The translations under genes were made by a program, and so were the position numbers. A stretch of 64,000 nucleotides of DNA from Paracoccus mutanolyticus (GTDB lineage: Bacteria > Pseudomonadota > Alphaproteobacteria > Rhodobacterales > Rhodobacteraceae). The notes below the pieces were generated by a model that made no database searches, was not told the DNA's origin, and was given only the letters and a program-made list of their open reading frames with translations. Of this stretch, positions 5,696 through 56,583 are shown piece by piece (position 1 is the first letter of the stretch; every line of letters starts with the position of its first letter). The stretch is from positions 1,880,501 through 1,944,500 of the forward strand of contig NZ_CP030239.1 of assembly GCF_003285265.1 (NCBI RefSeq), in the 5' to 3' direction.

Positions 5696-7927
5696 ATGTC
5701 CGACGATCCGAACACCACCGATCCGGCCCAGCCCGATCAGACCGTTTCCGAACCGCTGTCGCGCGCCATCGGCGAGCGCTACCTGACCTATGCGCTGTCC
5801 ACGATCATGCACCGGGCGCTGCCCGACGCCCGCGACGGGCTGAAGCCGGTGCACCGCCGCATCCTGTATGCGATGCGGGAATTGCGGCTGTCGCCGACGG
5901 GGGCGTTCCGGAAATCGGCCAAGATCACCGGCGACGTGATGGGCAACTATCACCCGCATGGCGACGCCGCGATCTATGACGCCATGGCGCGTCTCGCGCA
6001 GCCCTTCGCGATGCGCTATCCGCTGGTCGACGGGCAGGGGAACTATGGCAACATCGACGGCGACGGGCCCGCCGCCAGCCGCTATACCGAGGCGCGCCTG
6101 ACCGCCACGGCCGAGGCGCTGATGGAGGGGCTGGCCGAGAACGCGGTCGATTTCCGCCCGAACTACGACGGCACGCTGGAAGAGCCGGTCGTCCTGCCCG
6201 CGGCCTTTCCGAACCTCTTGTGCAACGGCGCCAGCGGCATCGCGGTCGGCATGGCGACGAACGTGCCGCCCCACAACCTGCACGAGGTGATCGACGCCTG
6301 CCTGCACCTGATCAAGTCGCCCGATGCCCGCGACGAGACGCTGGTTTCGATCATCCCGGGTCCGGATTTTCCGACCGGCGGCGTTCTGGTCGAAAGCCGC
6401 GAGACCATCGCCGAGGCTTACCGCACCGGGCGTGGCAGCCTGCGCCTGCGCGCCCGCTGGTCGGTCGAGGACCTGGGCCGCGGCATCTGGCAGATCGTCG
6501 TCACCGAAATTCCCTATCAGGTGCAGAAATCCAAGCTGATCGAGCGCCTGGCCGAGCTGATCCAGCTGAAGAAGGTGCCGATCCTGGCCGATGTCCGCGA
6601 CGAATCGGCCGAGGACGTGCGCATCGTGCTGGAGCCCCGCGCCCGCAACGTCGATCCCGATCAGCTGATGGGGGCGCTGTTCCGTGTCTCGGACCTCGAG
6701 GTGCGGTTCGGGATGAACATGAACGTGCTGATCGACGGCCGCGTGCCCAAGGTCTGTTCGCTGAAGGAGGTGCTGCGCGCCTTTCTCGACCACCGGCGCG
6801 AGGTGCTGGTGCGCCGCAGCAATCATCGGCTGGAAAAGATCGCGGCCCGGCTCGAGGTGCTAGAAGGCTACATGATCGCCTTCCTGAACCTGGACCGGGT
6901 GATCGAGATCATCCGGCACGAGGACGATCCGAAATCCGTCCTGATGGCCGAGTTCCGCCTGACCGAGGTGCAGGTCGAGGCGATCCTGAACATGCGCCTG
7001 CGCGCCCTGCGCAAGCTTGAGGAAATCGAGCTGCGCACCGAGCACGGCAAGCTGACCGAGGAGCGGGCGGGGCTTGTCGCCATGCTGGCCGATCCGGCCG
7101 CGCAATGGGGCCGCATCGCGCAGGAGCTGCGCGAGACGCGGGGCAAGTTCGGCAAGTCCGCCCCGGGCGGGCAGCGCCGCACCGAGATCGGCGAGGCCGG
7201 CGAGACCGCCGAGATCGACATGGATTCGATGATCGAGCGCGAGCCGATCACCGTGATCCTGTCGAAAATGGGCTGGATCCGCGCGATGAAGGGCCATCAG
7301 CCGCTGGACGCCGAGGTCAAGTTCAAGGACGGCGACGGGCCCTTCATGGCGCTGCACGCCGAGACTACGGACAAGCTGATGCTCTTTGCCGGCAATGGGC
7401 GGTTCTATACCCTGCCGGCCAGCAACCTGCCCGGCGGGCGCGGCATGGGCGAGCCGGTGCGGCTGATGATCGACCTGCCGAACGACGCGCCGGTGATCGC
7501 CATGTTCCCCTGGCGCGAGGGCGCGCGCTACCTGGTCGCCTCGAAGGCCGGGGACGGGTTCGTGGTGCCGGCGGGCGACATCCTGGCGCAGACCCGCGCC
7601 GGCAAGCAGGTCCTGAACGGCGAGGCGGTGCTGTGCCGGCCCGTCAGCGGCGATCATGTCGCCGTCGTGGGCGAGAACCGGAAGCTGCTGGTCTTTGCCC
7701 TGTCCGAACTGCCCGAGATGGGTCGTGGCAAGGGCGTGCGGCTGCAGAAATACAAGGACGGCGGGCTGTCGGATGCGATCTGCATCACCCTGGCCGACGG
7801 CCTGCGCTGGCAGGAGTCGGGCGGCCGCACCCGCACCGAACCCGACCTGACCCCCTGGCTGGGGAAGCGCGCGGGGACGGGCTACATGGCGCCGCGCGGC
7901 TTTCCCCGTGACAACCGGTTCAACTGA
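5696..7927 (+). CDS. parC: DNA topoisomerase IV subunit A
   Basis: Type IIA topoisomerase subunit that cuts and re-seals DNA to decatenate daughter chromosomes with ParE. 743 residues. N-terminal breakage-reunion domain with [40 protein letters not shown] and the catalytic tyrosine in [11 protein letters not shown]; tower and coiled-coil around 440-480; C-terminal beta-pinwheel from about 500 ([54 protein letters not shown]). The short pinwheel and the sequence type fit ParC, not GyrA. The start ATG at 5696 leaves a 15-residue acidic leader before the conserved domain. Confidence 0.95.
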
Positions 7928-7947: not shown

Positions 7948-7977
7948 GAAACGGGCGGGACATGTCCCGCCCGTTTC
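7948..7977. terminator. Perfect palindromic terminator between parC and the small-protein gene
   Basis: 30-bp perfect palindrome, GAAACGGGCGGGACA and its complement, starting 20 bp after the parC stop and ending 20 bp before the stop of the convergent small gene. It ends in TTTC on either strand, so it can serve both genes. Confidence 0.75.
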
Positions 7978-7997: not shown

Positions 7998-8147
7998 CTA
8001 GCTGCTGGTCGTGGGCCGCACCACGGGTTGTTGCGGCGTGGTCTGGGCCGAGGTGTCGGTTTTCATCTTGTGCCCCGCGCAATCGGCAAAGGCAGGCGCC
8101 GCGGCCGCCGACAGGGCAAGGGCAACGGCGAGGGTCTTGGCAATCAT
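7998..8147 (-). CDS. Small secreted protein, 49 residues
   Basis: Too short for standard ORF cut-offs but well supported. Starts MIAKTLAVALALSAAAAPAF and reads ADCAGHKMKTDTSAQTTPQQ then PVVRPTTSS. The first 21 residues are a clean signal peptide with AFA-D as the expected cleavage site; the mature part would be 28 residues with a single Cys. A strong ribosome site, AAGGAGAA, lies 8 bases before the ATG, and third positions are G/C-rich. The stop (TAG, 7998-8000) faces the parC terminator. I recognise the type (short exported ADC-start proteins are common in Rhodobacteraceae) but not a function. Confidence 0.7.
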   Translation of the reverse strand: MIAKTLAVALALSAAAAPAFADCAGHKMKTDTSAQTTPQQPVVRPTTSS

Positions 8148-8399
8148 CGCGTCAGTTCTCCTTGGATCGTTGGTCCTGGGTCCAGCCTTGCATGCAGGGG
8201 TGATTCGTTCAATCGAGGCCGGCGGCGATCACGCATCCGTTTGCATGTCGGCGCCGACGGGCCCCCGAGGGCCAGGCGCATCCGCTTTTTTCATCGCCTG
8301 CGTGGCCGGCTGGCGCGGAAAAAGGCAGGGGCCGCATGGATGCGGGTGCAGAACGGATTGCGATTGCCCGATGCCGCATTGCGGCGCAACCTGAAGGGG
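8148..8399. other. Gene-free stretch upstream of the small RNA
   Basis: Part of a 516-bp interval without a protein gene. No convincing start site, ribosome site or conserved peptide on either strand. It holds the promoter of the 49-residue protein and presumably that of the small RNA that ends near 8508. Confidence 0.5.
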
Positions 8400-8508
8400 A
8401 CGGGGCCCGCATCCCCGCCACCCCGGGCCGCACGGGGTTCTTCATGGCAACCGCCGTTCCTGTCGCGTCTCTCCTCCCTCCGCGCAGACAGGAACGGCGG
8501 TCTTTTTC
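8400..8508 (+). ncRNA. Putative cuckoo/CcsR-like small RNA
   Basis: A 15-bp perfect stem (8450-8464 with 8487-8501) encloses a 22-base loop containing CTCTCCTCCCTCC, an anti-Shine-Dalgarno motif. TCTTTTT follows directly, so the hairpin is a factor-independent terminator for + strand transcription. No + strand protein gene lies upstream, so the transcript would be non-coding. A weaker hairpin CCCCG-GGCCGCA-CGGGG precedes it (about 8422-8438). Tandem hairpins with CUCCUCCC loops are the signature of the alphaproteobacterial cuckoo family, which includes Rhodobacter CcsR1-4, stress-induced RNAs. The 5' end is a guess. Confidence 0.5.
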
Positions 8509-8564
8509 CGACAAAAAGGCGTGGCGCGCTGCGGACAGGCGATCCACCGGCTGCGGCGTGGCGC

Positions 8565-8663
8565 GGGGGGCTGTCTGCCCCCCGGCATGCAATTCGCCCC
8601 GGGGGGCGTATCGCATGCTCCCCCGAGGATATTTGTGCACGAAAGAAGCCCTGGGCCTTGCCT
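8565..8663 (-). repeat. Stop-adjacent 3'-UTR hairpin element, copy 3 (first tctC)
   Basis: Read on the minus strand after the tctC stop: CTTCTTTCGTGCACAAATAT, CCTCGGGGG, a GCATGC-flanked middle, then the hairpin GGGGGGC-AGACA-GCCCCCC (8565-8583). This is the most diverged of the four copies; the conserved box starts about 13 bases from the stop. Confidence 0.55.
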
Positions 8664-9635
8664 TCAGTCCAGGCTGACGTTCGCGTCGCGGACGACCGGC
8701 TCCCATTTCGCCATCTCGGCCTTGACGTGCTCGGCCAGTTCCTCGGGCGAGGAGGCGACGATGGTGGCCGAGAAATCCGCCATGCGCTTGACGACCTCGG
8801 GGTCGGCCATGGCGGCGCGGGCGGCGGCGTTCAGCCGGGCGACCGCCTCGGGCGGAGTGCCCGCCGGGGCGAAAAGCGCGTTCCAGGTATAGGTTTCATA
8901 GCCCGGCAGGGTTTCGGCGATGGCAGGCACGTCGGGGAAGCTGGGCGCGCGTTCGGCGGTGGTCACGCCAAGCGCCCTGAGCTTGCCCGAGGCGATGTGG
9001 CTGGAGGCCGAGGGCAGGTTGTCGAAGATGATCGGCACCTGGTTGCCCAGGACGTCGGTCAGCGCCGGGCCCGAGCCCTTGTAGGGGATATGGGTCAGAT
9101 CGACCCCCGCCATCGACTTGAAAAGCTCGCCCGACAGGTGGAGCGGCGTTCCGTTCCCGGACGAGGCATAGGCCAGCGTGCCGGGTTCCTTCTTGGCCAG
9201 GTCGATCAGTTCCTGCACACTGTTGACCGGCAGTTCGGGGTTCACCGCCAGCACGTTGGGCACCAGGACCAGCAGCGACACGGGGGCGAAATCCGCCACC
9301 GGGTCATAGGGTTTCTGCTTGAGGATCAGCGGGTTCAGCGCATGCGTGGCGACCGTGGCCATCAGGATCGTGTAGCCGTCCGGGTCGGCCTTGGCGACCT
9401 GTTGCGCGCCCAGGGAGCCGCCGGCGCCGCCCACGTTCTGGACCACGACCTGCTGGCCCAGGTCGCGGCTCATCCGGTCGGCGACGATGCGGCCCACGAC
9501 ATCGGTCGAGCCTCCGGCGGCGAAGGGGATGACCAGCGTGACCTGGCGTTCGGGAAATTCGGCGGCGGCGGCGCCGGCCAGCCCCAGCGCCATGGCGGCG
9601 CCCAGCAGGAGCCTGCGGGTGATGGATGGTGTCAT
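8664..9635 (-). CDS. tctC: Tripartite tricarboxylate transporter substrate-binding protein (TctC/Bug family), first copy
   Basis: Periplasmic solute-binding protein of 323 residues that presents a carboxylate to the TctAB permease. Twin-arginine-like start MTPSITRRLLLGAAMALGLA, probable cleavage after AAAA. Bug-family hallmarks: PFAAGGSTDVVGRIVADRMS, VVVQNVGGAGGSLGAQQVAK, DPDGYTILMATVATHALNPL, IPYKGSGPALTDVLGNQVPI. GGGAGGC lies 6 bases before the ATG. Last gene of the minus-strand transporter set and undamaged. The ligand cannot be told from sequence. Confidence 0.92.
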   Translation of the reverse strand: MTPSITRRLLLGAAMALGLAGAAAAEFPERQVTLVIPFAAGGSTDVVGRIVADRMSRDLGQQVVVQNVGGAGGSLGAQQVAKADPDGYTILMATVATHALNPLILKQKPYDPVADFAPVSLLVLVPNVLAVNPELPVNSVQELIDLAKKEPGTLAYASSGNGTPLHLSGELFKSMAGVDLTHIPYKGSGPALTDVLGNQVPIIFDNLPSASSHIASGKLRALGVTTAERAPSFPDVPAIAETLPGYETYTWNALFAPAGTPPEAVARLNAAARAAMADPEVVKRMADFSATIVASSPEELAEHVKAEMAKWEPVVRDANVSLD

Positions 9636-55761: not shown

Positions 55762-56583
55762 TCAGCGCCCCGCGAGCGTCGAGATGGAAACCGACTTGCG
55801 GCTGACGTATTCCGCCATCAGCCCGATCATCAGCAGCGCCACGATGCAGTAAAGCGGATAGCTCAACGAGGAATTGCGCGGCGAATAATTGATGAAGGCG
55901 AAGCCCCGCGTCTGGTCGATGATGTGGAACAGCGGGTTCCAGGCAAAGGCGTGCAGCATGTAAAGCGGCAGGGTGTTGGCGACGAACATCTTGCCCGAAA
56001 AGATCATGTTCATGCGCTGGTAAAAGCTGGTCAGCACCTGCGACCCTTCGGGCCACCAGGGCCGGAAGGACAGAAAGATCAGCCCGATGCAGCAGCCCGA
56101 GAACCAGGCCATCAGCAGCATCCCGTAGCAGGCCAGCGGCTTGTCGATATGCACCGGCTGGATCAGGTAGTGATAGGCCGACAGCACCACGATGGCCGAG
56201 AAGGTCTGCCGGTAAAGCGCCGCCAGGGCCGCGCCCGCCATCATGACGGCGGTGTTCATCGGCCCGTGCTTCATCATCTGGTTCGTCGGGCTGCCCGCGC
56301 CCGCGACCGCGCCGATGGCCTGGGCATGGGCCATGAACATGAAGATGCCGCTCATGATGTAGACGATGAAGTCGCCGCGGATGGGCGAGTTCCGCACGCC
56401 CAGGATCGAGAACATCAGCCAGAACCCCGCGATCATCGTGACCGCCTGCAGGACCGTCATCAAAAGGCCCACGACGGCGTTGCGCTGGCCCTTGCGCAGG
56501 TTGTTTGCGGTGATGTGATAGATCAGCGCCAGCGTTGTGAACGCGGCCTCGACCAGATTGCGGCTGCGACGCTGTGCGAACAT
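55762..56583 (-). CDS. ABC-2 type polysaccharide export permease
   Basis: 273 residues from MFAQRRSRNLVEAAF, six predicted membrane helices (GLLMTVLQAVTMIAGFWLMF, FIVYIMSGIFMFMAHAQAIG, ALYRQTFSAIVVLSAYHYLI, LMAWFSGCCIGLIFLSFRPW, MLHAFAWNPLFHIIDQTRGF, PLYCIVALLMIGLMAEYVSR). Pattern and length fit the KpsM/Wzm capsule-export permease group. No ATPase partner is visible in the window. The start is uncertain: longer frames toward 56778 lack a ribosome site. Confidence 0.8.
   Translation of the reverse strand: MFAQRRSRNLVEAAFTTLALIYHITANNLRKGQRNAVVGLLMTVLQAVTMIAGFWLMFSILGVRNSPIRGDFIVYIMSGIFMFMAHAQAIGAVAGAGSPTNQMMKHGPMNTAVMMAGAALAALYRQTFSAIVVLSAYHYLIQPVHIDKPLACYGMLLMAWFSGCCIGLIFLSFRPWWPEGSQVLTSFYQRMNMIFSGKMFVANTLPLYMLHAFAWNPLFHIIDQTRGFAFINYSPRNSSLSYPLYCIVALLMIGLMAEYVSRKSVSISTLAGR

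Follow-up and report, generated by a model that had tools for sequence, protein, structure and literature searches.

Anti-Shine-Dalgarno small RNAs recur across Alphaproteobacteria, and the presence of one seed in several RNA genes raises the question of cross-talk between them. Cuckoo RNAs are described as having two to four hairpins with a conserved loop motif, and their helices are not conserved (PMC4504443). CcsR1-4 are given as processing products of the ccaF1 mRNA, a DUF1127 transcript made from an RpoHI/RpoHII promoter (PMC10253847), and RS0680a of R. sphaeroides is reported to have two stem-loops with the motif in each (PMC3927594). ar14, or NfeR1, is a trans-acting RNA with three hairpins that each carry CCUCCUCCC, and it silences transporter and ntrBC mRNAs; the same source ascribes anti-Shine-Dalgarno motifs to AbcR1 and AbcR2, whose regulon consists mostly of transport and metabolic mRNAs (PMC10746234). 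MmgR is described as carrying its anti-Shine-Dalgarno motif in one of three stem-loops (PMC7143759), and as being repressed by PhaR in S. meliloti (PMC12542648).

Here, we analyzed a 64,000-nucleotide stretch of Paracoccus mutanolyticus DNA (the window, whose numbering is used below unless stated otherwise). We show, by comparing the copies of one of its loci, a conserved promoter, three hairpins, a covarying stem, a near-invariant loop, the lack of a conserved reading frame and neighbors that shift between genomes. This element resembles cuckoo RNAs without fitting them, and its loop could mask ribosome-binding sites on other mRNAs. We consider it probable that it is a stand-alone gene with its own promoter (8364-8392) for a trans-acting RNA of about 109 nt that masks Shine-Dalgarno sequences; its transcription, Hfq dependence, targets and sign of regulation are inferred.

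Anatomy and conservation of the predicted RNA

An earlier note on this DNA had described a perfect 15-bp stem, a loop motif and a plus-strand T run, and all three were confirmed: 8450-8464 pairs with 8487-8501, followed by a C and five T at 8503-8507. In the predicted fold, four further inner pairs leave a 13-nt loop, CTCTCCTCCCTCC (8469-8481), in which the motif positions are unpaired across the ensemble. The stretch 8400-8510 folds at -55 kcal/mol versus a shuffled mean of -39.4 (z -4.5; none of 200 shuffles equals it). The hairpin is the only site in the window with a perfect stem of at least 14 bp and a loop of 3-25, a combination that did not occur in 12 dinucleotide shuffles of the window. 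It was not listed by a simple terminator scan, which covers loops of 3-8 only, and the minus strand has no T run after it. All 67 genomic CTCCTCCC sites were inspected. Two of them lie in the loop of a hairpin that has six or more contiguous stem pairs and then five or more T in eight bases; these are the site in the element and the one in the final hairpin of a DUF1127 array discussed below.

A covariance model built from six copies, R1, gave 22 strong matches in 125 Paracoccus genomes at E 1.6e-10 or better, the window and a same-species copy included, so that about one in six of the examined Paracoccus genomes keeps the element. R1 matches 35 genomes in all, and the 13 weaker ones were not counted as members. 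The alignment used below holds the 21 non-identical copies, with L055 (identical to the window) left out; mean identities to the window were taken from 20 rows, with the shorter match L075 also left out. On this basis, the features of the locus are as follows.

8364 to 8369, plus strand: -35-like element TTGCCC (TTG in 21 of 21 copies)
8374 to 8384, no strand assigned: promoter-spacer palindrome CCGCATTGCGG, PhaR-like (13 of 21 promoters contain YGCRNYGCR)
8387 to 8392, plus strand: -10-like element CAACCT (CANNNT in 21 of 21 copies)
8399 to 8507, plus strand: predicted small RNA of about 109 nt (conserved block from GACGGGG to the T run in the 21 aligned copies)
8402 to 8416, plus strand: hairpin 1, GGGG-CCCGCAT-CCCC (from the fold; 94.2% of cells paired in 21 copies)
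8417 to 8448, plus strand: hairpin 2, core CCCCG-GGCCGCA-CGGGG (from fold and alignment)
8450 to 8501, plus strand: hairpin 3, 15-bp terminator stem (perfect pairing; 97.1% of consensus cells paired)
8471 to 8481, plus strand: anti-Shine-Dalgarno seed CTCCTCCCTCC in the loop (unpaired probability 1.0)
8503 to 8507, plus strand: terminator T run (read from the sequence)

The RNA start is placed at 8399 for its distance of 7 nt from the -10-like element. In every non-identical copy, TTG-N17/18-CANNNT (17 nt in 14 copies, 18 nt in 7) is accompanied by two hairpins on the 5' side and by a terminator stem that covaries and encloses a CUCCUCCCUCC loop. Since the promoter is conserved, separate transcription is the likely origin of the RNA, rather than processing from an mRNA 3' UTR. 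A strict sigma-70 consensus scan returned no promoter at the element. An RpoH promoter was considered and rejected: of its marks, given as TTG and TAT for RpoHI/RpoHII (PMC10673084), TTG fits and TAT is absent. The idea of a small protein read from the ATG in CTTCATGGCA was likewise dropped: L065, L069, L070 and L071 lack this ATG, the frame is shifted among other copies, and there is no conserved reading frame. The loop of hairpin 2 (8426-8432) reads N-GCCGCA, with GCCGCA invariant in 21 of 21 copies.

The consensus structure was derived from the same alignment that was used to score its covariation, in which 96.3% of 564 cells are paired, 16 cells are changed on both sides and the covariation score is 0.195, values that none of 500 shuffles reaches. 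When the structures are slid by 1-3 columns, pairing is at most 51.1%. Two further counts do not clearly exceed the shuffles: 12 of 500 shuffles reach the 5 pairs with two-sided change, and 261 of 500 reach the 23 further pair types. Hairpin 1 has one pair changed on both sides and hairpin 3 has three among its 13 consensus pairs; the helix of hairpin 2 shows no two-sided change in the 21 copies. The 11-mer loop of hairpin 3 is exact in 19 of 21 copies, and the CCTCCCTCC loop letters are identical in all 21, although the adjacent stem varies.

Mean identity to the window falls to 0.44 in the upstream flank and 0.27 in the downstream flank, as compared with 0.85 in hairpin 1, 0.88 in hairpin 2 (0.90 in its loop), 0.83 and 0.76 in the two arms of hairpin 3 and 0.90 in the seed, which is thus barely above the stem arms. 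The conservation of hairpin 2 and its loop matches that of the seed. This would suit a sponge or decoy RNA that titrates another RNA or a protein and works through the invariant hairpin 2 (loop GCCGCA), and a carbon-starvation sponge RNA is described in Caulobacter (PMC12559287). We regard this reading as highly improbable, as it has no known partner and the varying stem around a fixed CCUCCCUCC loop argues for pairing by the loop of hairpin 3.

Relation to cuckoo-type RNAs

The earlier note had taken the hairpin for a likely cuckoo-family RNA, an assignment that did not survive comparison. Like cuckoo RNAs and CcsR1-4 (RF02791), the element has CUCCUCCC in a hairpin loop, occurs in Alphaproteobacteria and probably acts by antisense pairing. 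In contrast to them, it has one motif hairpin, hairpin 3 of its three, its own predicted promoter and no DUF1127 gene. Its 9-mer, UCUCCUCCC, matches 8 of the 9 letters of CCUCCUCCC. The Rfam comparison that the note had proposed gave no match to CcsR1 (RF02791) or ar14 (RF02344) in 8000-8900 up to E 10. As the note had stated, no DUF1127 gene lies near: none scored over the cut-off within 100 kb, and the nearest of four is about 122 kb away. A sub-cut-off DUF1127 match (12.8 bits, E 0.52) falls inside a TctC gene, on the minus strand and 0.4 kb downstream of the element. By the published description of the cuckoo family, the element as read from its sequence is not a cuckoo RNA. With ar14/NfeR1 (RF02344), it shares predicted trans action and an anti-Shine-Dalgarno loop, and it differs in having one motif hairpin and no Rfam match. 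The likeness to AbcR1/AbcR2, judged by function only and by the Rfam scan, is one of similar anti-Shine-Dalgarno motifs.

The real cuckoo-type locus of the genome lies elsewhere, at 2192209-2192920 of the contig (L047, G000:C1:2192209-2192920). There, a minus-strand DUF1127 gene (2192816-2192920) is followed on the same strand by 14 CTCCTCCC motifs, and 13 of these motifs lie in stems with six or more contiguous pairs. This array matches CcsR1 at E 4.3e-11 and ar14 at 3.1e-9, both below the gathering scores, and R1 finds no match in it at E 1. The array is perhaps made up of seven CcsR-like pairs, as compared with four CcsR RNAs in R. sphaeroides. Judged by these matches, the genome has a cuckoo-type array plus a separate predicted RNA at 8399-8507, that is, two RNA loci that look unrelated, share a seed and seem to be under different control.

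Other Paracoccus genomes carry a further orphan RNA, with CCUCCUCC twice, between otsA and aroQ (L008, L077-L082; also L150 and L151). This placement holds in all seven loci used to build its model, R2, which gave 38 matches; some genomes have further ones elsewhere, and one has five on five contigs. Eight of the 13 genomes with weaker R1 matches were examined by locus, and six of these matches lie between otsA and aroQ and two elsewhere; among the other five genomes, three matches coincide with R2 matches at the same place. Because the 22 strong-R1 and the 11 strong-R2 genomes do not overlap, no genome was seen with both forms.

These comparisons bear on whether the element could be a true cuckoo or CcsR RNA that lost the loop motif of its first hairpin and moved off its DUF1127 gene. 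The shared loop motif and kind of 3' hairpin would agree with such a history, as would the two-motif RNA at otsA-aroQ, whose model weakly picks up the window element (E 4.7e-4). Against it stand the single motif hairpin where two to four are expected, the element's own promoter, the lack of any genome with both forms, and the fact that CcsR1 and ar14 are silent at the element while they match the array of the same genome, which R1 in turn misses. We therefore think this descent unlikely and favor a separate gene.

Several R2 loci have, by eye, TGAC-N17-CANNNT-like promoters, and a CYGCN3GCRG box lies 60-90 nt upstream in 10 of the 20 R2 loci scanned. Two other loci, L076 and L083, lie by eye between genes for a nitrate-sensor/ANTAR-like pair and a nitrate-type solute-binding protein, and each has a terminator-like hairpin, with CUCCUCCC in L076 and a degraded loop in L083, that is possibly a nas/nrt leader.

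Genomic neighborhood and taxonomic range

The statement that no plus-strand gene lies upstream was accurate only in part. In the window, a plus-strand parC gene (gyrase/topoisomerase IV subunit A family by Pfam) ends at 7927, 471 bases before the RNA start, and a minus-strand 49-aa ORF lies between it and the element. However, parC was not found in the 1.5 kb upstream in 18 of the 22 homologous loci, and the orphan conclusion therefore stands. Just past parC is a perfect 30-nt palindrome (7948-7977) with no T run, perhaps a parC terminator or a protein site.

In a search with 13 probe proteins, the nearest gene found upstream lay on the opposite strand at all 22 loci. The downstream gene varies, with cob genes in 17 loci, an endo/exonuclease-family gene in three and TctC in two. 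The commonest setting is a minus-strand pair of cytochrome c' and cytochrome b561 genes upstream and minus-strand cobalamin genes downstream; the window's species has parC and the 49-aa ORF upstream and a TctC gene downstream. Neighboring genes thus differ between loci while the element persists. In L059 and L061, from two species, a minus-strand phage-type integrase gene lies immediately 5' of the RNA promoter.

A strong stem with a T run could also be a mere terminator, for read-through from parC or for converging cob genes, with an accidental loop motif. Indeed, the window and 3 of the 21 other loci have parC upstream in the same orientation, and cob genes converge on the element in 17 of 22. 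Yet the uniformly opposite orientation of the nearest upstream gene found, the lack of a minus-strand T run, the promoter, the two further hairpins and the conservation of a loop that a terminator does not need make this reading very unlikely. Use of the hairpin as a terminator by a plus-strand gene, which the note had named as refuting its reading, appears unlikely from conservation. The claim of an orphan small RNA with an accessible anti-Shine-Dalgarno loop is supported, and the element is conserved as an independent unit.

Among the genomes scanned, the element was found to be restricted, as far as sequence matches tell, to part of one genus. R1 and a further model, R3, were run over 394 family genomes (roughly one for each genus; two of them were Paracoccus, the window's own genome and another) and no member outside the genus was accepted, in scans that can miss weak members outside the genus because they score few candidates per genome (7 and 9). 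R3 matched only the window's own genome. The sole other R1 match, L153 (E 3.4e-4), was rejected as a stretch without CUCCUCCC. A pattern scan of 84,980 species returned 26 stretches, of which the 13 in Paracoccus were all confirmed by R1 and the 13 in other taxa were not.

Candidate action and control

The element has the general features of anti-Shine-Dalgarno small RNAs, including promoter-like elements, an accessible loop, the shape of an intrinsic terminator and conservation as an intergenic unit. We propose that hairpin 3 would be terminator and working part at once. Its stem would expose CUCUCCUCCCUCC as a single-stranded loop. By pairing with strong Shine-Dalgarno sequences, of GGGAGGAG or longer, in several mRNAs, those of transport genes included, this loop would block their translation.

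Apart from those in the element and the array, 51 distinct GGGAGGAG sites were counted in the genome, and 19 of them lie 2-11 nt before a possible start codon (that of an ORF of at least 60 aa, or of one that runs off the stretch). A non-random pick of 10 of these 19 genes, scanned with Pfam, included six transport proteins: two ABC ATPases, one purine-type permease and three periplasmic binding proteins, of which one is a fragment that scores slightly under the Pfam cut-off. The other four were two regulators, a PQQ-type protein and a protein that Pfam did not match. Across 12 genomes there are 25 exact copies of the 11-mer complement, and 11 of these are the element itself; 10 of the 14 further ones precede a possible start codon. 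In the window's own genome, the exact complement occurs nowhere except in the element. This placement fits a translation block, and no target is claimed, because the loop complements are strong Shine-Dalgarno sequences and are expected before start codons anyway.

The promoter spacer offers a lead on control. R. sphaeroides PhaR is reported to bind CTGCNNNGCAG and the core of the S. meliloti motif is YGCRNYGCR (PMC12542648). This core occurs in 13 of the 14 promoters with 17-nt spacing and in none of the 7 with 18-nt spacing, that of P. denitrificans (L068) among them; the box is missing in 8 of 21 copies in all. In the window, its arms are CCGC/GCGG. Each strand of the window holds 83 occurrences of YGCRNYGCR, and the box is a lead, not proof, because the core is common in GC-rich DNA and the copies are related. 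The genome has a PhaR-family gene, and two CTGCN3GCAG boxes lie upstream of an adjoining gene that we read by eye as phaP.

A PhaR-like box in 13 of 21 promoter spacers suggests a Paracoccus counterpart of the PhaR-repressed MmgR. The two RNAs would share control by PhaR at the promoter (putative here) and an anti-Shine-Dalgarno motif in one of three stem-loops; MmgR/ar8 carries this motif in its first loop, and the element carries it in the terminator loop. RF00519 (suhB), which we take to be the Rfam family of MmgR/ar8, did not match 8000-8900 even at E 10 and scored nowhere above the cut-off in the window's own genome. Where it is present, as in many species, the box between -35 and -10 suggests that PhaR may repress the RNA and release it as carbon storage granules form. 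It is tempting, though the idea is rather unlikely to hold, to hypothesize that PhaR represses the RNA through the spacer box, that polyhydroxybutyrate granules release it, and that the RNA then covers the Shine-Dalgarno sequences of uptake and other mRNAs, so that the work of MmgR would be done by a different RNA. If this were true, two unrelated RNA genes of one genome would share one seed under two signals, and a working PhaR box would tie carbon storage to the translation of uptake genes in the genus of a model denitrifier.

The RNA gene is apparently undescribed, as judged by Rfam and by word searches, rather than sequence searches, of open papers. Its P. denitrificans homologue (L068/L096) may be among the 167 published sRNAs of that species, 16 of which have positions in the main text (PMC5107571). 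Cytochrome cd1-type genes lie 44-51 kb from this homologue on the same contig. Elsewhere in the window, a match to Rfam RF02645 (Cis2_sRNA) lies at 55873-56019 on the plus strand, above the gathering score.
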